Positions 3,177 to 22,244 of a DNA stretch of 36,360 nucleotides are shown here, piece by piece. The position numbers and the translations under genes were made by a program. Location of the stretch: positions 1-36,360 of IMG/VR virus record IMGVR_UViG_3300025152_000090. One strand, 5' to 3'. The number at the start of each line of letters is the position of its first letter. Position 1 is the first letter of the stretch. The notes beneath the pieces are model-generated. The model ran no database searches, was not told where the DNA came from, and saw only the letters and a list, made by a program, of their open reading frames with translations. This stretch comes from a virus.

Positions 3177-3494
3177 ATGTTTTTAAATAAAAAAAGAACT
3201 TTACAAATAAAGGAATTAGAAGAAAAAATAAATTGGTTAGCAACTCAAGTCCTCGCAAAATGTGATTATTGTGGAAAATTAAAAGATAAAACTACAATAA
3301 AACAAGCTTCAAGTTATGCAAAAGAAAGAGATATTCATTCTTTCTCTTTAGGAAAAATACATTCTTCTTCTCTTGTTTCAAATGCAAAATATATTTGTAA
3401 GGACTGTTTAAATGTGGTTAAAGATCAATTAAAAAAATACCAAGAAATTTTAAAGTTTATTAAAAAAGAAAAAGCGTTGGGAGGTAAAAAATGA
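3177..3494 (+). CDS. Small CxxC...CxxC zinc-binding protein (105 aa)
   Basis: The ATG directly follows the previous stop, and GGAGAAAG supplies the ribosome binding site. An N-terminal helix rich in K/E (about residues 5-25) precedes CDYCGK (about 29-34). A second pair, CKDC, lies near residue 74, and the C-terminal 30 residues form a charged helix. The spaced cysteine pairs suggest one zinc site, so a nucleic-acid or protein-binding adaptor is likely. The specific role is unknown. It overlaps the next gene by ATGA. Confidence 0.6.
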   Translation: MFLNKKRTLQIKELEEKINWLATQVLAKCDYCGKLKDKTTIKQASSYAKERDIHSFSLGKIHSSSLVSNAKYICKDCLNVVKDQLKKYQEILKFIKKEKALGGKK

Positions 3495-4621
3495 GCTACG
3501 CAATTTTAGATGATGAAATAAAAGCTGGAGATATGGTGGTTGGTATTGATGGAGCAGAGGAATATACAGTTACAAATAAAGGATCAGTTTTTAAAGTTGG
3601 AGGAGTTAAAGATAAATTATTAGTTACGGAAAATTTTAAATATGAAGTTGAAAGTAAATATTTTAAAAAAATAAAGCTAGAAATAGTTCAAAGAAATTTT
3701 TTGGATGGGTATATAACTAAAAACGGTGGATGGGTTTCTTTGGCTGCGATAGTTTGCGGTTCTGCGGAAGTTAGCGGTGATGCGGAAGTTTGCGGTTATG
3801 CAATAGTTAGCGGTTCTGCGAAAGTTAGCGGTTCTGCGAAAGTTAGCGGTTCTGCGATAGTTAGCGATTATGCGAAAGTTTGCGGTTCTGCAATAGTTAG
3901 CGGTTCTGCGAAAGTTTGCGGTGATGCGATAGTTAGCGGTTCTGCAATAGTTAGCGGTTCTGCGAAAGTTAGCGATTATGCAATAGTTAGCGGTTCTGCG
4001 AAAGTTTGCGGTTCTGCAATAGTTAGCGGTTCTGCGAAAGTTAGCGATTATGCGGAAGTTTGCGATTCTGCGGAAGTTAGCGGTGATGCGGAAGTTTGCG
4101 GTTCTGCAATAGTTAGCGGTTCTGCGGAAGTTTGCGATTCTGCGAAAGTTTGCGGTGATGCGATAGTTAGCGGTTCTGCAATAGTTAGCGGTTCTGCGAA
4201 AGTTAGCGATTATGCGGAAGTTTGCGATTCTGCGAAAGTTTGCGGTGATGCGGAAGTTTGCGATTCTGCAATAGTTAGCGGTTCTGCGAAAGTTTGCGGT
4301 TCTGCAATAGTTAGCGGTTCTGCGAAAGTTAGCGATTATGCGGAAGTTTGCGATTCTGCGGAAGTTTGCGGTTCTGCGGAAGTTTGCGGTTATGCGATAG
4401 TTTCAGCATCACCTAAAAACATCATATTACCAGATTTTTATCCTGTAACGCTATTTTGCGAAAATACAAAAGACAATTTAATGGCAATTGGTTGTGAACT
4501 GCACAAACTTTCAGAATGGGAAAAAGATGTTGAGCAGATTGTCAAAAAACATGGAGCAAATTTGGAAAAGGCAAAAAATGCAGTCGAAATTGCGAAAATA
4601 TTAACGAAATGGACAAATTAA
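3491..4621 (+). CDS. Hexapeptide-repeat left-handed beta-helix protein (376 aa)
   Basis: Residues 1-85 form a small N-terminal domain (MSYAILDDEIKAGDMVVGID...). Residues 86-307 are 37 tandem hexapeptides of the pattern A-[IKE]-V-[SC]-[GD]-[SDY], the periodicity of left-handed beta-helices of the LbH/YdcK type. The last ~70 residues contain MAIGCELHKLSEW, which resembles the IGC-x2-H-x3-EW end seen on other phage hexapeptide proteins. The stack would be about 12 turns. No acyltransferase catalytic histidine is visible in the array, so a structural, decoy or binding role is more likely than catalysis. GGGAGG precedes the ATG. It sits among small accessory genes, not with the tail genes. Confidence 0.75.
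   Translation: MSYAILDDEIKAGDMVVGIDGAEEYTVTNKGSVFKVGGVKDKLLVTENFKYEVESKYFKKIKLEIVQRNFLDGYITKNGGWVSLAAIVCGSAEVSGDAEVCGYAIVSGSAKVSGSAKVSGSAIVSDYAKVCGSAIVSGSAKVCGDAIVSGSAIVSGSAKVSDYAIVSGSAKVCGSAIVSGSAKVSDYAEVCDSAEVSGDAEVCGSAIVSGSAEVCDSAKVCGDAIVSGSAIVSGSAKVSDYAEVCDSAKVCGDAEVCDSAIVSGSAKVCGSAIVSGSAKVSDYAEVCDSAEVCGSAEVCGYAIVSASPKNIILPDFYPVTLFCENTKDNLMAIGCELHKLSEWEKDVEQIVKKHGANLEKAKNAVEIAKILTKWTN
3746..4411 (+). repeat. 37-unit 18-bp tandem repeat
   Basis: The unit is GC[G/A]-[GAA/AAA/ATA]-GTT-[T/A]GC-G[G/A]T-[TCT/GAT/TAT]. All 37 copies are exactly 18 bp and in frame, and only the last is degenerate (ending TCAGCATCA). Variation is confined to a few codon choices that are shuffled between units. 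Silent positions such as GTT are fixed, which points to recent expansion and homogenisation. Confidence 0.9.
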
Positions 4622-9841: not shown

Positions 9842-10065
9842 ATTTTATAACCAAATTTTTTAGGCGAAAAATATCAGAAAGCAATGGAGGCAAAGAGATA
9901 GAAGCTATTTATAACCTTTTATCAGAAAACGAAAAAGAAAAATTAAAGCCTTTATATGATTTGCATAATGATTTTTTAGAAGGATATGAGATAGGGTATT
10001 CTGATGTTCTAGCAGCATATTTTCGATCAAAGTTTAATAAGGGGAAATTAAATGAAAAATATTAA
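9838..10065 (+). CDS. Hypothetical protein (75 aa)
   Basis: I start it at the ATG at 9838, ATGA-coupled to the GroES-like gene; a longer reading from 9757 would lie inside that gene. The N-terminus is basic (MNFITKFFRRKISESNGG). The rest is acidic and helical (IYNLLSENEKEKLKPLYDLH). No domain is recognised, although the spacing of aromatic and acidic residues suggests a small helical bundle. Confidence 0.5.
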   Translation: MNFITKFFRRKISESNGGKEIEAIYNLLSENEKEKLKPLYDLHNDFLEGYEIGYSDVLAAYFRSKFNKGKLNEKY

Positions 10066-10114
10066 GTTTCGACCAAGAATTTCCAACCAGGAACTTATTA
10101 GATTAGAAAGATAA
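10052..10114 (+). CDS. Very small basic protein (20 aa), doubtful
   Basis: AAGGGG lies 7 bases before this ATG, which overlaps the end of the previous gene. It encodes MKNIKFRPRISNQELIRLER and stops at TAA. It could be a genuine micro-ORF or the leftover start of a longer gene. Only the ribosome binding site supports it. Confidence 0.3.
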   Translation: MKNIKFRPRISNQELIRLER

Positions 10115-10133
10115 AACAGGAGAGTGATATTAA

Positions 10134-10433
10134 GTGCAACATAATTATAAACAAGATATATATCTTGAAGCACAAATGAGAGCAATGGAAGGAAAAAAAG
10201 AAGGGCTAGAGGATTTTTATAGTGGAGTAGATACTTTAATAGAAAGAGTTTTATCTTTGCTTCTTAGCAACAAACAAAAAGCTATATATTGCTATAGGAT
10301 GCAATCAGAGCCAGTATCTTACTCCGTTATTGCAAAAGAACTTAAAGATACTCCAAGCAAAATAAAGTTTGAATTCAAAAAAATAAATAAAAAACTAAAG
10401 AATTTTAGAGCTTTTTTGGATTCTATGAAATAA
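10134..10433 (+). CDS. Sigma-region-4/ArpU-like putative late regulator (99 aa), GTG start
   Basis: CAGGAGAG lies 9 bases before the GTG. The N-terminal half is helical and charged. The C-terminal half has YSVIAKELKDTPSKIKFEFK, which fits a sigma-70 region 4-like helix-turn-helix, followed by a basic helix. Proteins of this size and type (ArpU or RinA-like) often sit just before the small terminase gene and switch on late transcription. That position, and the repeat-containing junction immediately downstream, fit this role. Assignment is by pattern and context. Confidence 0.5.
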   Translation: MQHNYKQDIYLEAQMRAMEGKKEGLEDFYSGVDTLIERVLSLLLSNKQKAIYCYRMQSEPVSYSVIAKELKDTPSKIKFEFKKINKKLKNFRAFLDSMK

Positions 10434-10447
10434 GGTTAAGCTTTACT

Positions 10448-10621
10448 TTAATATTCGGTTGGCTTGGGATAGCTTTTAGGTCTTCCCCCTTTTGAACCAT
10501 TTATCCTTTTAAACCTCTAATAAAAATAAGTCGGGTCAAAATCACGTCCAAAATATGCCTATTTTTTGGCTTGGTTACGCTAAATAAAAAAACAGTGGAT
10601 CAAAATCACGTCCAAAGTGCA
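10448..10621 (-). pseudogene. Decayed minus-strand frame ending NGSKGGRPKSYPKPTEY
   Basis: Read on the minus strand between TAA codons at 10622-10624 and 10448-10450, one frame gives natural-looking protein: RNQAKK, AYFGRDFDPTYFY, then RFKRINGSKGGRPKSYPKPTEY in two adjacent blocks. It is broken by three TAG codons (10580, 10559 and 10517). KGGRPK tails like this are common in phage replication or DNA-binding proteins. A second copy of the FGRDFDP block occurs in a different frame at 10575-10622. It is the only sign of a minus-strand gene in the window. Confidence 0.35.
10536..10616 (+). repeat. 17-bp direct repeat TCAAAATCACGTCCAAA
   Basis: The 17-mer is identical at 10536-10552 and 10600-10616, 64 bp apart. 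It lies in the 208-base gap between the putative late regulator and the packaging genes, so it could be an operator or late-promoter element. On the minus strand each copy encodes FGRDFD, so it may instead be the trace of a small duplication in the decayed frame. Confidence 0.6.
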
Positions 10622-10641
10622 TTACATATATAGGGGCATAG

Positions 10642-10818
10642 ATGAAAATCATAGCAACTAAACCAAGCAACGGAGCTTTTGTCAAGTTTGACAGCGAGGG
10701 ACAGTCTGAGATCAGGCTGGTTTGTGACGCTAGTCAGCAAGAGAGGGTAAAAGAGTTGCTAGACATACCATACGGAGAAGTGTTTGAAGTTGATTTTTGT
10801 GTTGGTAACAAGGAATAA
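10642..10818 (+). CDS. Small hypothetical protein (58 aa)
   Basis: This is the first gene of the late block. AGGGG precedes the ATG. The product (MKIIATKPSNGAFVKFDSEG...) looks like a small alpha/beta protein with strands ending in GEVFEVDFCVG. No family is recognised. It stops 5 bases before the small terminase start and is probably co-transcribed with it. Confidence 0.55.
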   Translation: MKIIATKPSNGAFVKFDSEGQSEIRLVCDASQQERVKELLDIPYGEVFEVDFCVGNKE

Positions 10819-10823
10819 CAATC

Positions 10824-11099
10824 ATGGCATTTGAGAAAGGGAAATCAGGCAATCCTTGTGGGAGACCTAAGGGCACAGGGCTAAAAGACCTTGCAGAAGA
10901 GCTAAGGAAGCAAGGGGCGATTGATAGGGCTATTAAGGTAATGACGGATGGGTTGGAGCAGGGCAGGACTAAGTTTGAGGCGGCGAAATGGATTTTAGAG
11001 AAGGTTTATGGTAAGGCGCCGCAAGCCGTAGAAATGAGTGGTCAACTTAATTTAACTTGGGCTGATATTGGCAAAAAAATAATTGAGGCAAACAAATAA
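10824..11099 (+). CDS. terS: Putative terminase small subunit, DUF5681-type (91 aa)
   Basis: The N-terminus FEKGKSGNPCGRPKGTG is the DUF5681 signature (KGxSGNPxGRPKG), seen in small phage proteins next to large terminases. It is followed by a helical segment and FEAAKWILEKVYGKAPQAVE, as in related small terminase-like proteins. The protein would recognise phage DNA and hand it to the large subunit. The start has a weak AAGGAAT site. Its TAA directly abuts the large terminase ATG. Function rests on motif plus position. Confidence 0.65.
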   Translation: MAFEKGKSGNPCGRPKGTGLKDLAEELRKQGAIDRAIKVMTDGLEQGRTKFEAAKWILEKVYGKAPQAVEMSGQLNLTWADIGKKIIEANK

Positions 11100-12572
11100 A
11101 TGCAAACAATCGACGAAATGACACAAAACTTTAAAGCGGCACAACAAAACCCAGTAGGCTGGTGTCGAGAGGTTTTAGGCGTTAAAACTCTAACATGGCA
11201 AGGGCATATCGATATTCTTAATGCTTTCACTACACACAAAAAAGTATCAGTAAAATCAGGACATTCGATGGGAAAAGATTTTATAAGTGGATTATTGTCT
11301 TTATGGTTTTTGTATAGCTTCCCAGAAAGCGTCGTGATTACTACAGCTCCAACTGCAAGGCAAGTCGAAAAAATTGTGTGGGGTGAGATCCATAAATATT
11401 GGCAGGCTAAACTTGGTGGCAAAGTGTTATCAACCTCGATCGAGATATTGCCTAACTGGTATGCACTAGGCTTTACGACTAAGGACGCCAACCAGATGGT
11501 GGGCAAGTTCCAAGGGTTTAAGAGTCGCAATTTACTAGTGATTGTTACAGAGGCGCAAGCAGTTGATGATTCCATCTACGAACAGATAGATGGCATAATG
11601 ACCAGTGATAATTCATATCTTTATTTAGCTGGCAATCCGACAAGAGCAGACGGTGAGTTTATAAGGTCGTTTAGTGATCCATCATTTAAGACCTTTACTT
11701 ATTCTGCCTATGAATCACCAAATTACATTGCAGGCAAAGAGATTATACCAGGTATGGCTAGTAGGGCTTGGGTTGAGCACATGGAGCGCAAATGGGGCAA
11801 AGAGAGTCCAATGTTTAAGGCTCGTGTGCTGGGGGAGATACTTAAGCAGAGCGCAAATAGTCTCATCTCTCTTGAGTCTTGCTATAAGTCATTAAATGCA
11901 ATGCCAACTAAGGGTTGGCGAGTTTTGGCTGTAGATCCTGCAAGGTATGGAGATGATTATACAGCTTTCGTGTCTATGCAAGGTGGCAAAATGATTGAAT
12001 GTGAAACAGAGCATGGCAAGCCAACACCTGAAACCGAAGGCAAGATATTGGCTAAGTTACGCAAGGGACATTACGACATCGTGGCAATCGACGAAGGCGC
12101 AATGGGGGCCGGGATATATGACCACATAGATCAAGTTTTACCAAATTTAAAAGACATAAATGGGAACTCTTTAGATATACGGCTTGTGCCTTTTAATTTC
12201 GGTAGTTCGCCGCAAGATAAAGTCCAATTTGCAAATTTAGGCACAGAATCTTATTTCAAAGTTTGCAATCAAATAGAGCAAGGAATGATACAGCTTGCTG
12301 ATGATGGTGATTTATTTGCCCAATTATCAGCACGAAAATATAAGTTTAACAACAAAGGACAAATGATTCTTGAGAGCAAAGAGGACTTAAAAAAACGAGG
12401 ATTACCAAGCCCAGACAGAGCAGATGCGCTAGTTATGGCGTGTAGTCTATCGTTAGATGATGGATTTGTTGAAAACAAAAAAGAACGAGAAGAAACAGAA
12501 TTTGATGCACATAATATCGAAACAGACGAGTTTGGATGTCCTGTAATTGAAGATATCGAGGTATATGCATAA
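11100..12572 (+). CDS. terL: Terminase large subunit (490 aa)
   Basis: This is the ATP-driven DNA packaging motor with a C-terminal nuclease. A Walker A-type loop SGHSMGKD is at residues 53-60, Walker B LLVIVTEA at 145-152 and the coupling motif AGNPT at 177-181. The nuclease part (RNase H-like fold) has VLAVDPARYGDDYT with Asp279, IVAIDEGAMG with Asp331, and the final SPDRADALVMA with Asp439/Asp442. Length and order are normal. It lies between the small terminase and portal genes as expected, and no key residue appears lost. Confidence 0.93.
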   Translation: MQTIDEMTQNFKAAQQNPVGWCREVLGVKTLTWQGHIDILNAFTTHKKVSVKSGHSMGKDFISGLLSLWFLYSFPESVVITTAPTARQVEKIVWGEIHKYWQAKLGGKVLSTSIEILPNWYALGFTTKDANQMVGKFQGFKSRNLLVIVTEAQAVDDSIYEQIDGIMTSDNSYLYLAGNPTRADGEFIRSFSDPSFKTFTYSAYESPNYIAGKEIIPGMASRAWVEHMERKWGKESPMFKARVLGEILKQSANSLISLESCYKSLNAMPTKGWRVLAVDPARYGDDYTAFVSMQGGKMIECETEHGKPTPETEGKILAKLRKGHYDIVAIDEGAMGAGIYDHIDQVLPNLKDINGNSLDIRLVPFNFGSSPQDKVQFANLGTESYFKVCNQIEQGMIQLADDGDLFAQLSARKYKFNNKGQMILESKEDLKKRGLPSPDRADALVMACSLSLDDGFVENKKEREETEFDAHNIETDEFGCPVIEDIEVYA

Positions 12573-12588
12573 TGAATGAGGTGCTGAA

Positions 12589-14874
12589 ATGACAATACAA
12601 AGGCGTAGTATGAATTTAACGCCAGAAATCATTAGAAATGATGATAAAAGAAAAAACAAAAAGAATAAAAAAGCATCAAAAATATCCTTAGATTTTGAGC
12701 AACCTTTTATGGCAATTGAAAACGCTAATGATAATATGTTAAAAAATAAATCTGTTGAAGTTGAAAAAGAAAAAATACTTGAAAAAGAAAAATTGTTGGA
12801 AAATCCAACTCCAGAAAACATCGCAAAAAATCAAAGTACACAAGTTATCTATAAAAAGATGGAGTTTGGCACAATTAAGCTTGATAGTGAGGAAGCTGAA
12901 GATTTAAGAAAGCGTGCATTAGAGGCTGTCATAAATAGATACAAAGAAGTTGAGAGCTTACATGACCAAAAAGTTAAAGATTGGGACAGATGGGAAACAC
13001 AGTGGAAAAATAAGATAGTAAGTCAAGATGGAACAACAAAGACGAGAGTAAGCAGTCCCGAGGTCTGGAATGCTGTCGAGGACTGGACCGCTACGATTAT
13101 GGCCGCAAATTTAGGAGTTGACCCTCCCGTTAAGTTTAAGGTCAAGAAAATGCTTGATAAATCAAAAGAGCTAAAAATACAAAAAATATTATGGCAAAAT
13201 GCAAAAGATGTTGGATTTGAGGAAGAGTTTGAGAGAGGTGCACGAGAAGGCTGTAAGCTTGGTACCTTTGCATTTAAGTGTCCATGGCAACTTGACGAAA
13301 AACCAACTTTGCAACTTGTAACTGAAGAATTCGAAGAAAATATTAATGGAGCAATCGTTAAGCGAAGGAAGCAAATTATACGGGAAGTTATAGAAATCGA
13401 GGACAGGGTAGGCTTTAAGGCTCTTGATTTAAGACGGCTTTATTATCGCTACGATAAACCTTCATGGATTATCGAAAGAATAAATGATAATTGGGATACC
13501 ATTGAAAAGCTGGCAAAAGAAAATAATGTTTATACCAATCTTGAGAAAGCAAAGAAGACAATTGTAGATACAACCGGACAACCTGACTCAGAAGCAAAGA
13601 GTGATAGTGAGACTACTCCGTTGTCTTCTTTGCTTTCAATTGATGGGGATGTTGAAATCTTTGAAGGGCATCATATTCCTTTTTACTTTAAAAAGAGCGA
13701 CCCTGTTCCTGAAGAGTTGAAAGGAAAGAAAGTGCCTTGCATAATAAGTATTGCAAATGAGCAGGAAGTAATAAGGTTACAGCCTACGCCTTACAGGACA
13801 GTTCCATATTTATTGGTACCCTTTATACCACAAGCTGGTTCTTCGTTAGGCGTAGGCATTCCTGAAATAATTGAAAAGATGTACAAAGAGCTTAATTTGA
13901 GGAAAAATCTGTCGCTAAACGCTAACACCCTAGGCTTGTATTGCATGATAGCCGCTAATATGAAATTTATTAAAAAACCACAGCAACTTCAAATAAAACC
14001 TCATCAAGTGATTGAATTAACTAATGTGCCGCAAGGGGCAAACATAGAAAACATACTATCATTTGTCCGACCTCCGGTTGAGTTTGTGCAAGTTGCTCAA
14101 CAATTGATTGGAAAAATTGAACAGAATATACAAGTTGCAACACGACTCAAAGGTGTCAGTAGCGGTGAAAAAGTTGCCCCTAATCCAACAGCCACAGAAA
14201 TGGCGTCGATAATGAAAGAAGCTTTAAAGTCGTTAAAGTTAGTGTTTAGACGAATTGATAGAGGAATTGTTGAAGAATATTTTGAACGTGCTTATATTAT
14301 GACGATTCTTAATAGACAGAAAAGTTGGTTTTTAGAGTTTAAGCCAGACGAACTGCAAACGATCAGGCATAAAATGTTTGATGGGCAAACAATGATGGGG
14401 CAAGAGCATCTTGGCGCATTTTCAAATTCAACAGAAGAAATGCCAATGTCCCCAATGGCTAACCAAGAAAATCAGTGGATAGAAATAACACCACAAGACA
14501 TTTATAGCAATGGGATTGAAGTTGAGGCTTTAGGTGCAAGCCATATGGAAGACGAGATCGTTAAAACTCATCAGAGTTTGCAAACGCTTGACATAATTTA
14601 CAAATATGGCAATGAGCCTGTAGTTAATGATGAGGGACAGAGCGTAATGCTTAATAAATATAAAGCATGGAATGATATGCTTTATTCGAGTGGCAAAAAA
14701 GATATTAAAGAGTGGTGGATTGCGGTTCCGCCTCCTTTGCCTACACCACCTGTTCCTATGACATTGGCAGAGCAACCAATGTTGCCAGGCATAAAATCTC
14801 CAAACCTGCAAAATATAGCTCCTAATATGGCTAATTTACTCGGAGGAGCTGCTGGAGCAGGGAGGAGACAATGA
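12589..14874 (+). CDS. Portal protein (761 aa)
   Basis: The gene follows the large terminase and has the length and composition of large portal proteins of podovirus-like phages. The first ~80 residues are a lysine-rich tail. The family-like region then begins with LHDQKVKDWDRWETQWKNKI, with conserved patches such as SSPEVWNAVEDWTATIMAAN and, later, FIPQAGSSLGVGIPEIIEKM and a helical segment near TATEMASIMKEALKSL. The C-terminus is proline/methionine-rich. AGGTGCTGAA precedes the ATG; an ATG at 12610 is a possible alternative. The assignment rests on context and these patches. Confidence 0.8.
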   Translation: MTIQRRSMNLTPEIIRNDDKRKNKKNKKASKISLDFEQPFMAIENANDNMLKNKSVEVEKEKILEKEKLLENPTPENIAKNQSTQVIYKKMEFGTIKLDSEEAEDLRKRALEAVINRYKEVESLHDQKVKDWDRWETQWKNKIVSQDGTTKTRVSSPEVWNAVEDWTATIMAANLGVDPPVKFKVKKMLDKSKELKIQKILWQNAKDVGFEEEFERGAREGCKLGTFAFKCPWQLDEKPTLQLVTEEFEENINGAIVKRRKQIIREVIEIEDRVGFKALDLRRLYYRYDKPSWIIERINDNWDTIEKLAKENNVYTNLEKAKKTIVDTTGQPDSEAKSDSETTPLSSLLSIDGDVEIFEGHHIPFYFKKSDPVPEELKGKKVPCIISIANEQEVIRLQPTPYRTVPYLLVPFIPQAGSSLGVGIPEIIEKMYKELNLRKNLSLNANTLGLYCMIAANMKFIKKPQQLQIKPHQVIELTNVPQGANIENILSFVRPPVEFVQVAQQLIGKIEQNIQVATRLKGVSSGEKVAPNPTATEMASIMKEALKSLKLVFRRIDRGIVEEYFERAYIMTILNRQKSWFLEFKPDELQTIRHKMFDGQTMMGQEHLGAFSNSTEEMPMSPMANQENQWIEITPQDIYSNGIEVEALGASHMEDEIVKTHQSLQTLDIIYKYGNEPVVNDEGQSVMLNKYKAWNDMLYSSGKKDIKEWWIAVPPPLPTPPVPMTLAEQPMLPGIKSPNLQNIAPNMANLLGGAAGAGRRQ

Positions 14875-15119
14875 GAAAAGAAGAATTAGACGATTTTTTA
14901 TTATCTGATATTTATAAAGAGATAAAAAATAGATTAAATATTTTTAAAGAAGAAAGCAAAGAAGAACTTATAAATCTTGATTTTGATCGAGATTATGCAC
15001 CAATAAAAGCAGTTAAATTGCAAGGAAATATGGATGCAGTAAATAAATTGTTTGATATTATTCAAGATTTAAAAGATGAGTTTGAAATAGAAAAAAGTGG
15101 AGGTGAAGAAGAAGAATGA
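14871..15119 (+). CDS. Small acidic protein between portal and scaffold (82 aa)
   Basis: GGGAGGAGAC precedes the ATGA-coupled start. The protein is highly charged and helical, begins MRKEELDDFLLSDIYKEIKN, contains KLQGNMDAVNKLFDIIQDL and ends in SGGEEEE. Small acidic helical proteins at this position are common in podovirus-like head modules, but their role is not established. Its stop overlaps a lysine-rich short ORF at 15116. Confidence 0.6.
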   Translation: MRKEELDDFLLSDIYKEIKNRLNIFKEESKEELINLDFDRDYAPIKAVKLQGNMDAVNKLFDIIQDLKDEFEIEKSGGEEEE

Positions 15120-15187
15120 GGCAAGCAAAAAAGACAAAGAAAATGAAAAAAAAGACTTTAATGGAAATGAAAATAAAAAAAGTATAA
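15116..15187 (+). CDS. Very small lysine-rich ORF (23 aa), doubtful
   Basis: The ATG overlaps the stop of the 14871 gene, and GGAGGTGAAG lies about 12 bases upstream. It encodes MRQAKKTKKMKKKTLMEMKI plus three residues. The +1 frame across the same bases reads a polar NEASKKDKENEKKDFNGNEN and ends at a TAG inside the 15210 hairpin, so either frame might be what is translated. Evidence is thin. Confidence 0.25.
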   Translation: MRQAKKTKKMKKKTLMEMKIKKV

Positions 15188-15209
15188 ATAATTTATTTAA
15201 TTTTAAATG

Positions 15210-15302
15210 CTCGGACTAGCTATCCGAGGGTAAAGAACCCAAACAAAAGCCTTATAAGGCGGGCGATTAACCACAGGTTAATTTGTCCGCCTTTTTGTTT
15301 GG
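15210..15302 (+). terminator. Multi-hairpin structure with intrinsic terminator
   Basis: Three structures occur in series. CTCGGA/TCCGAG (15210-15228) is a perfect 6-bp hairpin, and GGGT/ACCC (15228-15240) is a short one. GGCGGGCGATTAACC and GGTTAATTTGTCCGCC (15258-15291) then form a long hairpin followed by TTTTTGTTT. In addition CCAAACAAAAG (15239-15249) can pair with CTTTTTGTTTGG (15291-15302), closing a larger fold. The long hairpin plus T tract is a good intrinsic terminator between the portal and scaffold genes. The outer pairing could compete with termination. Confidence 0.75.
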
Positions 15303-15336
15303 AAAGTTAGAGATTATAAAGGAGGTAGGACTATAA

Positions 15337-16290
15337 ATGGAATCAATAGAGTTAGATTTGACAGGTAGTTCAATAGCTTCTGAAACATCTGATTCAGCGT
15401 CAAAAGAAAATGCTGGACAAGAAGAAACAGAAGTGAAAGACGAAATTGAATCAATAAACTTAGAAGATCAGCAAGAAGTAGATGGAAAAGAAAATTCATC
15501 AAGCGAAGAAGCTGAAGTTGTTAAAGATAAGATTGCAACTGAAACAACTAAACCACAGCAAAGCAATCCGTTAGACCCTCGAAGGTTGCAATCGGAACGA
15601 GACAAGATAGAGGCTGCATATGGGAAGCTCGTAAAAGAAACTTTGCCATATATAAAATATGACCAATTTGGAAATGTTTTAGGTGCTAGGGAAATAGAAC
15701 CACAAATCCCTAAGGAGGATGCGGATAGTCTTTATGAAAAAGCTTTATTATCAGGAGATAAGGAAGCATTTAAGCAAATTATAGAAAACACTAAAAAAGA
15801 AGCAGTTCAAGCTACGCTTACCCAGTTTTCTGACTATACAAACTTACAAAAAGAAGTAGAAGCAATCCAAAAAGAATACTCTAATTTATTTGATAATGCT
15901 GGGAATATTAAGAAAGATGAACCATTAGCACAAAAGACCGAAGAAGTTTTGCGTTTACCAGCATTTAAAGAATTAGTAGAGTCAAACAAAATGACACCTA
16001 AAATGGTTAAAGTGGCAATTCAATTAGCAGAAGCTAATTTAATCAAAGAAGGACTTTCGTCTCGTGACCAGAAAATAAAAAATGAAGCACAACAAAGGAT
16101 AAAAGAATCAGGCGCTTCATCGCTTGCAACAGGAATCTCAAGCATACAAACTGATAATTCAGAGGAAATGTCTTTGAATAATGACCAACTTTCTTATTAT
16201 AAGAAACAAGGTTACAACCAAGAAAACCTTAAACGATTATCAAAAATTGTGGCAAGAGCACACAAAGAAGGAGGGTATAACATATTATGA
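15337..16290 (+). CDS. Putative scaffolding protein (317 aa)
   Basis: The protein is acidic, low in cysteine and helical. Residues 1-75 are Ser/Glu-rich (MESIELDLTGSSIASETSD...), and a coiled-coil-like region follows around residues 85-240. The C-terminus has the charged stretch NLKRLSKIVARAHKEGGYNIL. Composition, length and position between portal and capsid genes fit an internal scaffold that guides capsid assembly and leaves before DNA entry. AAAGGAGG precedes the ATG. No direct sequence signature proves it. Confidence 0.7.
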   Translation: MESIELDLTGSSIASETSDSASKENAGQEETEVKDEIESINLEDQQEVDGKENSSSEEAEVVKDKIATETTKPQQSNPLDPRRLQSERDKIEAAYGKLVKETLPYIKYDQFGNVLGAREIEPQIPKEDADSLYEKALLSGDKEAFKQIIENTKKEAVQATLTQFSDYTNLQKEVEAIQKEYSNLFDNAGNIKKDEPLAQKTEEVLRLPAFKELVESNKMTPKMVKVAIQLAEANLIKEGLSSRDQKIKNEAQQRIKESGASSLATGISSIQTDNSEEMSLNNDQLSYYKKQGYNQENLKRLSKIVARAHKEGGYNIL

Positions 16291-16823
16291 GTCCTACTAA
16301 AAAGAAAGATTTAAATTTAGATATTTTTGATGAAACTAAAAAGAGTAAAGGTGAGATTGATCCAGTCATTGCAAAATCGGATCAAAAAAATAATTTGTTT
16401 ATTGGAGCTGAAGTTGTCGGGCTACAAAGCCTTGATAAAACAACTTTAATTAATGCCAATCCTACTTATTGTTATAGGTGGAAAAATAAAAATCAAATGG
16501 CAGGGAAACGATCTGGTTATTGGCTTGTACTGGATAAAACTCATCCAGAATTTAAGGATTTAAAAGTTGTTGAAGATCATACTCCAAATGAAACTTTTTA
16601 TACTATTGGTGATTTAATTTTATGTTGTATGCATAAAGATACACATCGTCAAATAATTAACCAAAAACAAGAAAATGCAATACAACTAGGAAAAGAATTT
16701 GAAGAAAAATCAAAAGCAACAGAAGAAAGAATTAATAAGTCAAAAGGAAAAGAGAAACTTACTATTTTAAATAAAATGGAAAACGACGGGGAATTAGAAC
16801 CGTTATCCATAGAAGGCGTTTAA
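16287..16823 (+). CDS. Head-module hypothetical protein (178 aa)
   Basis: AAGGAGGG precedes the ATGA-coupled start. A disordered, lysine-rich N-terminal ~30 residues leads to a domain with NPTYCYRWKNKNQMAGKRSG, HPEFKDLKVVEDHTPNETFY and IGDLILCCMHKDTHRQII. I recognise this layout from proteins between scaffold and capsid genes in other phages, where it is an uncharacterised virion or assembly protein. A coiled-coil tail follows from about residue 130. Confidence 0.6.
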   Translation: MSPTKKKDLNLDIFDETKKSKGEIDPVIAKSDQKNNLFIGAEVVGLQSLDKTTLINANPTYCYRWKNKNQMAGKRSGYWLVLDKTHPEFKDLKVVEDHTPNETFYTIGDLILCCMHKDTHRQIINQKQENAIQLGKEFEEKSKATEERINKSKGKEKLTILNKMENDGELEPLSIEGV

Positions 16824-16846
16824 AAACTAAAAAATAAGAGGTTAAA

Positions 16847-17338
16847 ATGGCAAATAGAATTAAATATGGCTTTGTTCCAGTTCATGCAGAAAACTATACA
16901 ACTCCACAATGGTATGTTGTTGCTGCAAGTCAAACAATAGCACTTGGTGATCCTGTTATTATGAATAGCGCTGGTAGGGTTGAAGTTGCAGTTGCGGGAG
17001 AAATCTCCACTGCAATTATTCTTGGGGTTTCTGCTTCGTATGTTGAAAACTCCACCGTAGACGACCCAATTCAAGTTTATGATAATCCAAACCAGATATT
17101 CGAAGCAATGGTGTCTACTGGCGCTTTAGCTGATCCGTATACTACAAGTAATGTTGGAGGGAATAAATATTTTCAATTAGCAGGGACAACTGGAGCTTTT
17201 TATGTTAATGCAGCAGCATTTACAAATGGAATCTTTAAGTGTGTAGGAAACAGTTCTGATCCCGAAGCCTCGGAAGTAGGCGCGAATCAAAGAAAACTGT
17301 TTAAGTTTCTTTCTACGAGGCATATTCTGAGTTCTTAA
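16847..17338 (+). CDS. Putative capsid decoration protein, copy 1 (163 aa)
   Basis: The beta-rich sequence starts MANRIKYGFVPVHAENYTTP, followed by WYVVAASQTIALGDPVIMN and AIILGVSASYV, the pattern of small capsid-stabilising proteins of the DUF2190/decoration type. These coat the outer capsid surface. AAGAGG precedes the ATG. The next gene (17362) is a clear paralogue with the same opening and three near-identical DNA tracts. The C-terminus (KFLSTRHILSS) differs from copy 2. Confidence 0.65.
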   Translation: MANRIKYGFVPVHAENYTTPQWYVVAASQTIALGDPVIMNSAGRVEVAVAGEISTAIILGVSASYVENSTVDDPIQVYDNPNQIFEAMVSTGALADPYTTSNVGGNKYFQLAGTTGAFYVNAAAFTNGIFKCVGNSSDPEASEVGANQRKLFKFLSTRHILSS

Positions 17339-17361
17339 AAATAATATAGGAGGTAATTAAA

Positions 17362-17847
17362 ATGGCAAATACAGTTAAATATGGATTTTTACCAGTCCAT
17401 TCAGAAAAGTACCATGCCCCGCAATGGTATGTGGTTGCAGCGACTCAAACAATTAAAAAGGGGGATCCTGTTAGTTTAGATAATGCAGGGCGAGTAATTA
17501 TTGCCGTTGCAAATAGTACTACTCAATTTTTAGGAGTATCTGAAACAGGCGTAACGGCTTCCACAGTAGGAGACCCAATTCAAGTATGTGATGACCCAAA
17601 CCAGATATTCGAAGCAATGGTGTCTACTGGTGCTTTAGCTGATCCGTATACTACACGATCAGCTTTAGCTTGTTTTGATTTAGCAGGGACAACTGGAGCT
17701 TTTTATGTTAATGCAGCAGCATCTGCTCAAGATGTTTTTCGTTGCGTAGGAAACAGTTCTGATCCCGAAGCCTCAGAAGTAGGCGCGAATCAAAGAAAGC
17801 AGTTTAAGTTTAATCCTGCCGCACATATGTACGGTACGATAGCGTAG
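17362..17847 (+). CDS. Putative capsid decoration protein, copy 2 (161 aa)
   Basis: It is a paralogue of the 16847 gene, starting MANTVKYGFLPVHSEKYHAP and containing WYVVAATQTIKKGDPVSLDN and FLGVSETGV. Three blocks of DNA are nearly identical between the copies while the rest has diverged. A strong ATAGGAGGT site precedes the ATG. The gene ends in TAG, with a TAA two codons later. It lies just before the major capsid gene, as expected for a decoration protein. The pair could occupy distinct capsid sites. Confidence 0.65.
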   Translation: MANTVKYGFLPVHSEKYHAPQWYVVAATQTIKKGDPVSLDNAGRVIIAVANSTTQFLGVSETGVTASTVGDPIQVCDDPNQIFEAMVSTGALADPYTTRSALACFDLAGTTGAFYVNAAASAQDVFRCVGNSSDPEASEVGANQRKQFKFNPAAHMYGTIA

Positions 17848-17880
17848 TTTTAAAATTTATTATATAGGGAGGAAATTAAA

Positions 17881-18768
17881 ATGACAATGAGATCAACAGA
17901 TTTTTCAAATATTATTGCCCCAGGACTAGCGAAAGTAATTCAAGACAAATTTAAGCAATTTGAGTTGCAATATCCAAAATATATGCATATATTTCCATCA
18001 AAAAAAGCTTATGAACAAAGTTTAACAATGGAAGGATTTGGTGCAGCGCCAATAAAACTAGCAGGAGTTTCAGTTAACTATTTTGATTTAACGGAAGGGT
18101 ATAAAACTACTTTTACCCATGCTACATATGCAGTTGGGGCTAAAATAGAGTATGAACTTTATGACGATGATCTTTATGATGCATTGCAACCTAAAATTGC
18201 TCGCTATTTAGCAAGATCATTACAACAGAGAATGGAAATTTTAGGCGCAACCCCAATTAATACAGGATTTACTACGGCTGGGGCAGATGGACAAGTTTTA
18301 TTTTCTACGGCTCATCCGTTTAAGTCCGGAGGGACAGCTAGTAATAGACTTGCGGTTGATGCGGACTTATCAACTTCCTCGTTATCAGCATTATTAACTG
18401 TAATGGACACAACAACAGAAGCAGGAGCAGTAAATATTAAGTTAAATCCTACTAAACTTCTTATTCCACCTCAATCTAGATGGGTCGCAAAGACTATTTT
18501 AGGGTCAGATCAGTTGCCTGGAAGTATGGATAACGACATTAATGCTTTGAAAAATATTTTAAAGCCTGTTATGTGTAACTTTTTTACTGATTCTGATGCT
18601 TTTTTTGTACAAGATGAAGATCATGATATGACTTATTATGATCGTGAAAAACCAAAAATGGAAAATTCTGATGATAAAGATACTTTTGACGCTAAATTTA
18701 CCATAAGGATGAGATCGTCAGCAGGCTATTCAGATTGGCGAGGAATTGCAGGAAGCAGAGGAGCTTAA
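17881..18768 (+). CDS. Major capsid protein, Mu gpT-like (295 aa)
   Basis: The protein has features of the Mu major head subunit (gpT) group: MTMRSTDFSNIIAPGLAKVI start, an N-terminal helix, ATYAVGAKIEYELYDDDLYD, and GADGQVLFSTAHPFKSGG, the LFxTAHP signature. The conserved later part is LKNILKPVMCNFFTDSDAFF, followed by TIRMRSSAGYSDWRGIAGSR. It would form the HK97-fold shell. GGGAGG precedes the ATG. Decoration genes upstream and the virion block downstream agree. Length is normal for the group. Confidence 0.85.
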   Translation: MTMRSTDFSNIIAPGLAKVIQDKFKQFELQYPKYMHIFPSKKAYEQSLTMEGFGAAPIKLAGVSVNYFDLTEGYKTTFTHATYAVGAKIEYELYDDDLYDALQPKIARYLARSLQQRMEILGATPINTGFTTAGADGQVLFSTAHPFKSGGTASNRLAVDADLSTSSLSALLTVMDTTTEAGAVNIKLNPTKLLIPPQSRWVAKTILGSDQLPGSMDNDINALKNILKPVMCNFFTDSDAFFVQDEDHDMTYYDREKPKMENSDDKDTFDAKFTIRMRSSAGYSDWRGIAGSRGA

Positions 18769-18787
18769 TTTTAAAAAAGACATTTTT

Positions 18788-18821
18788 TTAAAGTTTTGGT
18801 CTTAGATAACTAAAACTTTAA
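18788..18821 (+). terminator. AT-rich hairpin after the capsid gene
   Basis: TTAAAGTTTT (18788-18797) and AAAACTTTAA (18812-18821) are perfectly complementary across a 14-base loop. A/T runs flank it (T7 before and AATATAAAAA after), but there is no clean T tract on the + side. It may partly terminate transcription after the capsid gene, or protect the transcript end. Confidence 0.35.
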
Positions 18822-18835
18822 TATAAAAAGGATAA

Positions 18836-18933
18836 TGAGGGTTAAATCCTTCAACTGGACAAGAGGCGGAACGTTAAATCGTTACCTTTAGTAAAGATGG
18901 GCGGAGTGTTAAATCACTACCTCTCTTGACAGT
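18836..18933 (+). promoter_or_regulatory. Leader with three covarying TTAAAT-loop hairpins
   Basis: Three small hairpins share the loop TTAAAT but have different, fully paired stems. Hairpin 1 is TGAGGG/CCTTCA (18836-18853). Hairpin 2 is GGAACG/CGTT-A-CC (18868-18886) and hairpin 3 is GGAGTG/CACT-A-CC (18903-18921); both have a bulged A. Inner pairs change in a compensating way (G-C/C-G/U-A and G-U/A-U/G-C). ACTG-GA-CAAGAG (18854-18865) can pair with CTCTTG-A-CAGT (18923-18933) to enclose hairpins 2 and 3. The array ends 20 bases before the 18954 start and fills most of a 185-base gap. It could be a translational operator or a DNA site; its partner is unknown. Confidence 0.6.
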
Positions 18934-18953
18934 CCTAAAAAGGAGAAAATAAA

Positions 18954-21900
18954 ATGAGTACTGAACATTCAACAAGGATTTTTGATGAGCTAATGGGAGA
19001 CAGGGGAGACAGTGGAATAGTATCTGAAACTTCTGGAAATACATGGTGGGTCTGTAATTCGGCTACAGTCTTAGATGGTAGACTAAATGGTTCTAACGGA
19101 AACGATGGATTGTCTCCAATGTCACCTTTTGAAACTATTGATTATGCAGTCTCACGATGTGTTGCAAACAAAGGCGATGTTATCAAAGTTATGGAAGGGC
19201 ATACAGAAAATGTAAATTCTGCAACGGCTCTTCAATTAGATGTTGCAGGAGTAAGGGTTGAGTTTTTGGGTGAAGGCTCTGGAAAAGCAAAACTTAGCTT
19301 TAGTACAATAACAAGTGCTGCTATGACAATTACAGCAGCTGGGGTTACACTTGTTAATCCAAGATTTGAAGCTGCAATAGATGGTTTGACAGGACCTATT
19401 AGTATTACAGCAGCTGATCTTAAAATCATTGACCCTGAATATTACGATGCAACGGATATGAATACAGTTGATGCGTATGTTGCTAGTGCAGCAGCTGATC
19501 GACTAAAAATTTATAATCCTAAATTTTTTAAGAGTAACGAAGGTGGAACACAGAAACAAAGTCATATCCAAGTTGGAGCTGCTGGCGATGTTGAGATAAT
19601 CAATCCTGACATAAACGGCGATTTTGCCACAGGAAATATTGAGAATACTACAGCATGGGCTAGAGCTAGAATAAAAAATCCAACATTAAACAACACAAAT
19701 GCAACACCAAAGCCAACAATTTCATTAGCAGCAGCATCTGCTGGTATTGTTGAAGGCGGAAACTTAAGAGTTGCGTCTGGGGTACTTTTTGTTTCTGCTG
19801 TAAACCAAATGGAATGGAGAGATGTTTACGGGACAAATACAGTTGGAGAACATGCTAACTTTTTAATTGGTGGAATAAGTTCTTATGCGAAAGACCCAGC
19901 AATTGGAGCAAATACAGCTGATAATTTGTTTGATAGCACAAACACAGGAGCAAACGCTGATGGGTCTTTAATGGAACGAGCTGAATATATACAATCTTCT
20001 ATTGGTGCTGGATTAGGTGCGGCCGTTGCGGCGATTCAAACAGATTTAGGCAACCCCTCTATTCGCACAAATCTTAAAACAATCGAAGCAATGCTTGGGA
20101 ACCCTGATTCTGCCGGAGCAACTATTTATGACGCCATTGGTTCGGGTGCGGGATTAGTAAGTTATCCTGCGGCGGCTCCCGCTGGAGACGGAGTTTCGGT
20201 TGCAGAAGTTGCAAGATATATACAGGAGAGTCAACTTGGGACTTTAGCAAATACCGGAGGAACTGCAACTGTTGGAGGGATTTTAGGAGATGTAAACAAT
20301 AGTTCAGTTGCTACTCGTTTAACAAATGCTCAAACAGAACTAGACAAAATTGGGACAATAGTCAATACAGGTGGAACTGCAACACTAGGCGGAGCCTTGG
20401 GAGATGTGGCCAATGTGAGCGTAGCTACAAATTTAGCTAAGATTGGGACAATTACAAATACTGGAGGAACCGCTACATTAGGTGGGGCAATTGGGGATGT
20501 AGCTAATATCTCTGTTGCTACTCGTCTTGGGAATATTGAAACTGAAACCGATCTTATTGGTACGCCTGTAAATACTGGGGGAACAGCAGAAATCGGCGCA
20601 ATGCTTGGGGATTTTGCAAATATAAGTTTAGTTACCAGATTAGGGGTTCCTGTTACTTCTGTTTCTGCTGATATTGCAGCAGTTAAAACAGAAGCAGATA
20701 AAATTGGCACGATTGTTAACACTGGGGGAACAGCCACGATTGGTGGAATCTTGGGAGATTTTGCAAATGTAACTGCTGTTACAAAACTTACAAATATTCA
20801 AAATGAAGTTAATAAGGTAGATTCTGCTACTTTGGCAGCAAGTCCTACAGCAGGTTCTTTAGCAAGATTTATAGCTTCAGGTGGAACTGCTTTGGGTACA
20901 CCACTAGCTGATAGCAAATCTCTCGTTGATGCGCTTGGAACAAACGGAACAACAGTTGCGGATAGCGCCACATCAGTCTTAGGAGCAATTGGTGCTAATA
21001 ATGCTAATAATGCTTTTGATTCAAGTACAGTAATTTCTAATCCAGACGGTTCTGTATTAGAACGAGCTGAAGATTTAAGAAAAGTAGTAAGAGGGTCAGA
21101 AGGATTAACATTAAAAGTTACTTGTGATGCTGGAATGGTTGCAAGTACAACTTCTCTTGTTAGTGCTGATTTAATTGGATATGGTAACGATTTATTTAAT
21201 AATAAATATTATGTAGAAGTTATCAAAAATACAAGTGCAGTTGGAACAATGCCAGAAGGATTTACTCGTCAAATTACTGATTATGATTCAGCTACTGGGA
21301 CTTTAACTGTTGCGGCATTCCCAGGGAACGTTGAGGCGAGTGATGTTCTTTTAATTAAACACGATTCTTTGGCGATGCTCGATTCAGTGACTTACGATTC
21401 AACTTTGATTACTGCAGCGGCCAATGGTTCGCTAATGGAAGTAGCAAAATATATTGAAGGTGAAGTAAATCGTATATCTGCTGCATCTCTAGCTGTTTCG
21501 CCAGTCGCGGGTTCATTGGGAAGATTTATAGCTTCAGGTGGAACCGCCCTTGGAACAGAGCTTGCTGATAGTAAATCTTTAGTGGATGCTCTAGGGACAA
21601 ATGGTACAACCGTTACTGCGGCAGCTGGTTCTGTACTAGGTGCTTGTGGCACACAGTTTGTAGTAAGGAAAATGCTAACTTCTAGCAATATTACTCAAGC
21701 TGGGGTTGATATTACAGGATTAGTTACAACTGGAGCTTTATTGATTAAAGATATTTATATCAATACAGACGCTACTGGTTTGGCTGCTGGTACAAACTTT
21801 CAAATTACAACAGACAATACCTTTGGTATTACTACTCCAATCTTTGAAGAAGCCGTTGCAAACTTAGGAGCAAACAAAACCGAGTCTTTGGCGACTGGTT

Positions 21901-22049
21901 CTGTAGCCGCTGTAGCCGGTGGTGTGTTGGGAGTTGGTAAGAAATTGATTGCAAAATCAACTGTGGCTGATTGTACAGGCGGTGGACAAATCTCAATTGA
22001 TATTGTCTTTCAGCGTGTGTTAGATGGTGCATTGGTTTTAGCAGCTTAA
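18954..22049 (+). CDS. Large repeat-rich virion protein (1031 aa)
   Basis: The N-terminal ~300 residues have a beta-helix look: GSNGNDGLSPMSPFETIDYA, GDVIKVMEGHTENVNSATAL, then repeating short strands. This opening is common in structural proteins directly after the capsid gene. The middle has five NTGGTA-x-xGG-x-LGD repeats (coded from about 20246 to 20780). A 39-residue block starting SPTAGSLARFIASGGTALGT (20841-20957) recurs at 21498-21614. The C-terminal ~110 residues form a separate beta-rich domain. A capsid fibre, head decoration or tail spike is likely; no enzymatic motif is seen. AAAAGGAG precedes the ATG. Confidence 0.6.
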   Translation: MSTEHSTRIFDELMGDRGDSGIVSETSGNTWWVCNSATVLDGRLNGSNGNDGLSPMSPFETIDYAVSRCVANKGDVIKVMEGHTENVNSATALQLDVAGVRVEFLGEGSGKAKLSFSTITSAAMTITAAGVTLVNPRFEAAIDGLTGPISITAADLKIIDPEYYDATDMNTVDAYVASAAADRLKIYNPKFFKSNEGGTQKQSHIQVGAAGDVEIINPDINGDFATGNIENTTAWARARIKNPTLNNTNATPKPTISLAAASAGIVEGGNLRVASGVLFVSAVNQMEWRDVYGTNTVGEHANFLIGGISSYAKDPAIGANTADNLFDSTNTGANADGSLMERAEYIQSSIGAGLGAAVAAIQTDLGNPSIRTNLKTIEAMLGNPDSAGATIYDAIGSGAGLVSYPAAAPAGDGVSVAEVARYIQESQLGTLANTGGTATVGGILGDVNNSSVATRLTNAQTELDKIGTIVNTGGTATLGGALGDVANVSVATNLAKIGTITNTGGTATLGGAIGDVANISVATRLGNIETETDLIGTPVNTGGTAEIGAMLGDFANISLVTRLGVPVTSVSADIAAVKTEADKIGTIVNTGGTATIGGILGDFANVTAVTKLTNIQNEVNKVDSATLAASPTAGSLARFIASGGTALGTPLADSKSLVDALGTNGTTVADSATSVLGAIGANNANNAFDSSTVISNPDGSVLERAEDLRKVVRGSEGLTLKVTCDAGMVASTTSLVSADLIGYGNDLFNNKYYVEVIKNTSAVGTMPEGFTRQITDYDSATGTLTVAAFPGNVEASDVLLIKHDSLAMLDSVTYDSTLITAAANGSLMEVAKYIEGEVNRISAASLAVSPVAGSLGRFIASGGTALGTELADSKSLVDALGTNGTTVTAAAGSVLGACGTQFVVRKMLTSSNITQAGVDITGLVTTGALLIKDIYINTDATGLAAGTNFQITTDNTFGITTPIFEEAVANLGANKTESLATGSVAAVAGGVLGVGKKLIAKSTVADCTGGGQISIDIVFQRVLDGALVLAA

Positions 22050-22056
22050 GTATTCT

Positions 22057-22095
22057 AATTTTACCCCTCCCTAATAAAATAGGGAGGGGAAAATT
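22057..22095 (+). terminator. Strong GC-rich hairpin after the 1031-aa gene
   Basis: CCCCTCCCTA (22064-22073) pairs perfectly with TAGGGAGGGG (22080-22089) around ATAAAA, and the flanks AATTTT and AAAATT extend it. AAAATTAAGG follows on the + strand, so the T tract for termination is on the minus side. On + RNA it is likely a transcript-end or stability element, possibly a weak terminator. Confidence 0.5.
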
Positions 22096-22109
22096 AAGGA
22101 GATAAATTT

Positions 22110-22244
22110 ATGGAAAAAGTTAAAGGTGCAATTGTTTATAAAGAAGTTTTGCTGACAGGAGAAACAAGATTTTTAATTATATTTTATGAAGATGGTAAAT
22201 TGTATGACGCAACAGGGATTTTGCCTGTAACAGCGATGGCATAA
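22110..22244 (+). CDS. Small hypothetical protein (44 aa)
   Basis: AAGGAGATAAATTT precedes the ATG. The protein (MEKVKGAIVYKEVLLTGETR...) reads as a small antiparallel sheet: KGAIVYKEV, RFLIIFYEDGKLYDATG and VTAMA. It may be a tiny virion or accessory protein. Family unknown. Confidence 0.55.
   Translation: MEKVKGAIVYKEVLLTGETRFLIIFYEDGKLYDATGILPVTAMA

Follow-up and report, generated by a model that had tools for sequence, protein, structure and literature searches.

A probable three-hairpin leader RNA with a common TTAAAT loop downstream of a gpT-like capsid gene in a groundwater virus

The 185-nt gap between the gpT-like capsid gene and the following 1031-aa gene of a groundwater virus holds an array that very probably folds in the mRNA as three hairpins with one common loop. 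We give an about even chance to the reading that this array is a cis-regulatory 5' leader element for the 1031-aa gene, particular to this lineage. The virus is represented by a single IMG/VR record (IMGVR_UViG_3300025152_000090), and all of its 36,360 bases were analyzed; this whole stretch is referred to as the window. The features of the region are listed below.

11100-12572, large terminase gene (PHROGs)
12589-14874, head-tail adaptor gene in the portal position (PHROGs)
17881-18768, + strand, major capsid gene (gpT-like head protein) upstream of the leader; PHROGs phrog_371 major head protein, E 2.6e-22
18788-18822, + strand, A+T-rich stem-loop just past the capsid gene (inverted repeat I1, fold)
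18835-18891, short ORF 1, peptide MRVKSFNWTRGGTLNRYL
18836-18853, + strand, hairpin H1, TGAGGG-TTAAAT-CCTTCA, 6 bp including one G-U; ensemble probability of the inner five pairs 0.97
18854-18933, + strand, predicted enclosing helix, ACTG 18854-18857 with CAGT 18930-18933 and CAAGAGG 18860-18866 with TCTCTTG 18922-18928; minimum free energy (MFE) and constrained folds
18868-18886, + strand, hairpin H2, GGAACG-TTAAAT-CGTT-A-CC (copy D3); probability of the 4-bp stem 0.35, of the GG/CC extension 0.18
18897-18929, short ORF 2, peptide MGGVLNHYLS
18903-18921, + strand, hairpin H3, GGAGTG-TTAAAT-CACT-A-CC, with two compensated pairs relative to H2; probability of the 4-bp stem 0.94-0.99, of the GG/CC extension 0.31
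18933-18945, + strand, UCCU (18933-18936), which can pair with the Shine-Dalgarno sequence AAGGAG (18940-18945); 18941-18943 are 70-77% paired in the ensemble
18954-22049, + strand, 1031-aa gene (ORF), the presumed target of the leader

The array starts 68 nt past the end of the capsid gene, and 32 nt lie between the end of H3 (18921) and the start codon of the 1031-aa gene (18954). The product of this gene is probably a virion protein because of its position beside the capsid gene; phage ctMEh928 has a gene in the corresponding place, immediately after its capsid gene, whose product matches residues 26-288 at 37% identity. Neither a Pfam family nor a solved relative was found for it when these were looked for. 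The stem-loop at 18788-18822 occupies the position at which relatives carry an intrinsic terminator; it has no U-tract behind it, and terminator prediction gave no call. Just before the capsid gene, tandem duplicate genes were observed at 16847-17338 and 17362-17847 (163 and 161 aa, 68% identical), and the closest capsid relative, locus L023, has two similar-looking consecutive genes in the same place. Elsewhere in the window, dense repeats spaced by multiples of 18 nt occur at 3815-4380, inside a 376-aa gene (3491-4621) that matches PHROGs of unknown function.

A repeat finder located GTTAAATC at 18841, 18873 and 18908, with spacings of 32 and 35 nt, and the TTAAAT loops occupy 18842-18847, 18874-18879 and 18909-18914. 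Read outward from the loop, H1 has the pairs G-C, G-C, G-U, A-U, G-C and U-A, H2 has G-C, C-G, A-U and A-U, and H3 has G-C, U-A, G-C and A-U. A sequence-only reading had described three hairpins with a common TTAAAT hexaloop, an A-U basal pair and a closing G-C pair, the two inner pairs varying between copies and still pairing, and had given the same copy spacing; all of this agreed with the sequence and, for the repeats and spacing, with the repeat finder. The GG...A-CC motif with a bulged A that it had seen in H2 and H3 is also present, as an extra GG/CC across a bulge on the 3' strand (18884 and 18919), and folding recovered the proposed long-range pairing around these two hairpins as the enclosing helix. 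The GC content of the leader is 0.43, compared with 0.36 genome-wide and 0.17 just upstream.

Copies 2 and 3 have a 23-nt unit in common (18865-18887 and 18900-18922), and a 22-nt unit was found in this leader alone within the genome. The two copies differ at four positions (A-to-G, C-to-T, G-to-A and T-to-C), which together amount to full compensation in two pairs, with G-C in place of A-U and U-A in place of C-G. Since all four differences fall into compensated pairs, an RNA structure is a better explanation than either a coding repeat or the duplication of a DNA site, and the G-U pair in H1 favours RNA of the + strand.

Several calculations addressed how often such an arrangement arises by chance. 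Three hairpins sharing a loop of at least 6 nt within 100 nt were found in 0 of 150 order-1 shuffled genomes. A stem of at least 4 bp was present at only 8.7% of 265 unrelated GTTAAATC sites, and within the window at all three sites in the leader and none of the four elsewhere. When 77 stretches with a pair of GTTAAATC sites from public collections were considered, both stems reached at least 4 bp in the same virus only. When four substitutions were placed at random in the 23-nt unit, 0.03% of trials produced two pairs changed on both sides and left all six pairs intact; with the four changes forced to be transitions, as observed, the value is ~0.17% by arithmetic (15/8855). These numbers bear on an explanation by chance and recent duplication, in which a hairpin that arose fortuitously was copied and the four differences look compensatory by coincidence. 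The motif was indeed chosen post hoc, none of the collections searched held a homologue and the folding z-score is unremarkable, but the rarity of the compensatory pattern (0.03-0.17%), the lack of any such array in the shuffled genomes and the low background of 4-bp stems at GTTAAATC make this explanation distinctly unlikely. Taken together, the chance tests and the compensation constitute good but not conclusive evidence for RNA structure, because the tests on the array were run after the motif had been noticed and H2 is not independent of H3.

Folding of the 131-nt leader gave -31.1 kcal/mol (z -2.4), and in a genome-wide scan the segment starting at 18830 ranked 68 of 908 (z -1.9). The stability of the whole leader is only moderate and unremarkable for this genome; with this rank and z-score, stability alone would not have singled it out. 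The most stable folds of the genome relative to shuffles are long intergenic stem-loops at 1321-1470 (z -6.2) and 15201-15310 (z -5.1), the latter ending in a T-run and thus terminator-like. In the predicted ensemble of the leader, H1 (0.97) and H3 (0.99) dominate and H2 (0.35) competes with another pairing. The bulged GG/CC extensions of H2 (0.18) and H3 (0.31) are minority states, H1 has no bulge, and the fold that combines both bulged hairpins with the enclosing helix is 1.2 kcal/mol less stable than the optimum. The GG of the Shine-Dalgarno sequence is predicted to be ~77% paired. An alternative partner for GUCCU is AGGAU at 18829-18833, upstream of the array, and a switch between the UCCU/Shine-Dalgarno and GUCCU/AGGAU pairings may be possible, judging from the folding model.

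The hairpins could also be passive, protecting, processing or spacing the mRNA between two differently expressed genes with no dedicated ligand, in which case the shared loop would stem from duplication of a single stable hairpin. The moderate stability of the leader is consistent with such a role, as are the location of H2 and H3 within the 23-nt direct repeat and the presence of stronger plain stems in other gaps (e.g. 15201-15310 and 22041-22150). A passive stem would, however, have no need of a loop that stays invariant while the stem changes by compensation, and duplication does not explain H1, because it has the same loop and little else of the repeat. We consider a purely passive structure rather unlikely.

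Read as double-stranded DNA, the three GTTAAATC direct repeats, 32 and 35 bp (about three helical turns) apart, might form an operator array or a packaging or recognition site. A DNA-binding protein does not require arms that change by compensation, the G-U pair in H1 likewise speaks against a DNA site, the unit is found nowhere else in the genome and no convincing promoter is attached, so that a DNA site appears most improbable. A TTGACA-N18-TAAAAT sequence at 18926-18955 does match a sigma-70 promoter at 11 of 12 positions, overlapping the Shine-Dalgarno sequence and start codon of the 1031-aa gene; the match is probably due to chance, because promoter-like sites are no more frequent in this region than in shuffles. 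The sequence-only reading had proposed a translational operator, an RNA packaging signal or a DNA operator array. Cis-regulation has kept its plausibility, given what occupies the same slot in relatives (see below), whereas packaging and a DNA operator found no support, with no further copies in the genome and a stem sequence that is unconserved between copies.

The two short ORFs over the hairpins raise the question of whether leader peptides are made from them, through which translation of the 1031-aa gene is coupled or attenuated. In favour of this, the two copies share one open peptide register, each closed by a stop codon, and AAAAAGGA precedes the ORF at 18835-18891. Its GGA, however, lies just 2 nt before the ATG, closer than in the other listed genes, the ORF at 18897-18929 has no Shine-Dalgarno sequence, and neither has a normally placed ribosome-binding site. 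Both codon differences between the copies alter the amino acid, whereas none of the four base changes disrupts pairing, and no homologue of the peptide motif was found in any of the relatives' leaders examined. Translated leader peptides are very unlikely on this evidence. The compensatory changes, nonsynonymous codons and abnormal ribosome-binding sites also bear out the earlier view that a coding duplication does not explain the copies; the likeness of the local peptides GGTLNRYL and GGVLNHYL had been called a weak alternative, and with this placement and a motif absent from relatives' leaders it is weak indeed.

To learn how widespread the array is, exact and relaxed patterns were searched in public collections, giving 31 viral and 43 genome matches, among which a pair of 4-bp stems occurred in the same virus only. 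The exact array was found once more, in MFGS01000190.1 (L189:1-8696), an 8.7-kb scaffold with N gaps from the metagenome bin of Candidatus Firestonebacteria bacterium RIFOXYA2_FULL_40_8. The scaffold is collinear with 10026-19099 of the window at 99.7-99.97% identity, and by this measure it is the same virus and an independent confirmation of the sequence. The binning suggests a host within the Firestonebacteria. No divergent relative of the array was detected in 45 Firestonebacteria genomes; the other capsid match in this group (33%) has a gap with a plain terminator and a Shine-Dalgarno sequence only. Five matches to the array pattern in IMG/VR were rejected: they belong to another phage group, where they lie antisense to terminase starts, and their stems are mismatched. 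Queries with the terminase, the capsid protein and the N-terminal part of the 1031-aa protein returned no close relatives, and the leader DNA gave chance matches only in phage records. When the leaders of 80 relatives were searched for hairpins with a shared loop, three weak two-copy cases were found, none with TTAAAT, and L023 (44% capsid identity) has a 67-nt gap without the array. Base-pair compensation was seen between the copies inside one array of one genome, and no divergent homologous leader was found.

The same slot was compared among capsid relatives, comprising 80 IMG/VR loci (31-44% capsid identity) and INPHARED genomes (26-36%). In many of these, a terminator followed by a structured leader separates the capsid gene from a decoration-type gene (MANTTFSGPVRS...). 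The structured leaders of relatives are mostly located upstream of decoration-type genes, and the 1031-aa gene falls outside their decoration family. Mu-gpT-DE RNA (Rfam RF03012) occupies the slot in 13 of the relative loci. Another 28 relative loci have a double-pseudoknot leader (model R1) there: L012:3994-4060, L060:1544-1610, L070:3384-3450, L096:1492-1558 and 24 further loci. Its elements follow in the order P1a, P2a, CTGn, P1b, [CA]AGAC, P3a, P2b, P3b and Shine-Dalgarno, which gives two linked pseudoknots: P1 is formed with bases in the P2 loop, and P3a, which is part of the same loop, pairs with bases that abut or overlap the Shine-Dalgarno sequence. All three helices covary strongly. 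Changes on both sides were seen at 8 of 8 pairs in P2, with a covariation of 0.94 compared with 0.23 after shuffling. P1 found its own partner at 19 of 19 loci and a partner of different sequence in 0 of 278 cases, and P3 its own at 17 of 19 loci compared with 15% for a different sequence; these permutation controls on P1, P2 and P3 ignore shared ancestry. At gathering thresholds, no Rfam 15 family matched the 14 such loci that were scanned, and three loci gave no relevant weak match at E up to 0.5; the double-pseudoknot leader thus appears to be new relative to Rfam. Other leader types were observed in the same gap, in the capsid 3' flank of loci L034, L036, L041, L063 and L024-L031, including AGTCTAATGG...GGCTGGTT flanking a hairpin, and ACGACTGCGCAAGCAGACT; none of those scanned matched Rfam at gathering scores. 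No leader RNA of a phage decoration gene was found in the collection of literature searched.

The structured leaders in the relatives make a cis-regulatory role of the three-hairpin array plausible. We propose that the 185-nt gap encodes a structured 5' leader RNA, and that the array would control expression of the 1031-aa gene in cis, probably at the level of translation initiation or by way of mRNA processing. Because identical loops sit on stems of different sequence, a single loop-reading ligand is suggested, most likely an RNA-binding protein of the phage or host, which would recognize the loop and the hairpin shape in two or three copies. The array would then be particular to this lineage, in a slot where relatives often carry structured leaders of other kinds. 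A more detailed version is unlikely and is offered as speculation, namely that a single factor of the phage or host is bound by the three UUAAAU hairpins together, which may have T-loop-like folds, and that this binding sets the ratio of capsid to the next virion protein; the array would be one of several unrelated RNA solutions to a control problem that this phage group faces in the slot between capsid and decoration genes. The slot itself is a hotspot of structured leaders. If real, the repeat-hairpin design would join the structured RNAs directly after gpT-like capsid genes and, along with the double-pseudoknot leader of relatives, would make the capsid-to-decoration gap a testable case in which RNA control of virion protein ratios evolved repeatedly and apparently independently in tailed phages.

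Among known RNAs, the earlier reading had likened the array to the coat operators of RNA phages. The operator of ssRNA phages of the MS2 type is a ~20-nt hairpin around the start codon of the replicase (PMC3561173). The likeness is that of a small hairpin with a bulged A beside a structural gene, but the window has three hairpins with hexaloops, ending 32 nt before the start codon, and the bulge is absent from H1 and weakly predicted in H2 and H3, so the analogy did not hold up. The bulge of the MS2 operator is also on the opposite strand from that of H2 and H3. As a lead only, the UUAAA of the loop fits the T-loop consensus, UUNRA, and H1 presumably resembles a tRNA T-arm lacking one loop base. 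Freshwater-2 RNA (RF02980), which is likewise located upstream of a start codon, was rejected as a candidate at 18880-18956, where it scored 19.8 bits against a cutoff of 49.9 and agreed mainly from the Shine-Dalgarno sequence to the ATG.

Mu-gpT-DE RNA, which was reportedly first described in a 2017 paper, resembles the array in being a structured RNA right after a gpT-like capsid gene and before the next structural gene. It differs in having ~53 nt and one main hairpin in the matched loci, compared with the three-hairpin layout of the window, and RF03012 gave no match at E up to 10 in 18700-19100 or 18780-18980. The double-pseudoknot leader of relatives is found in the same gap upstream of a virion gene, its last helix abutting the Shine-Dalgarno sequence, but the window lacks its core of CTGn-NNNNN-[CA]AGAC, its P2 and its linked pseudoknots. 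The best overlap of model R1 with the array scored 3.1 bits with filters off, compared with 22.8-68.9 bits in the 28 matched loci. By these comparisons, the leader of the window belongs to neither type; it has the slot, and perhaps the function, in common with them. A known ligand and known regulation belong to the leaders of ribosomal protein S15, with which we compare the slot in how it would work: there, distinct RNAs fill the same regulatory position across lineages and control homologous genes (PMC5100602).
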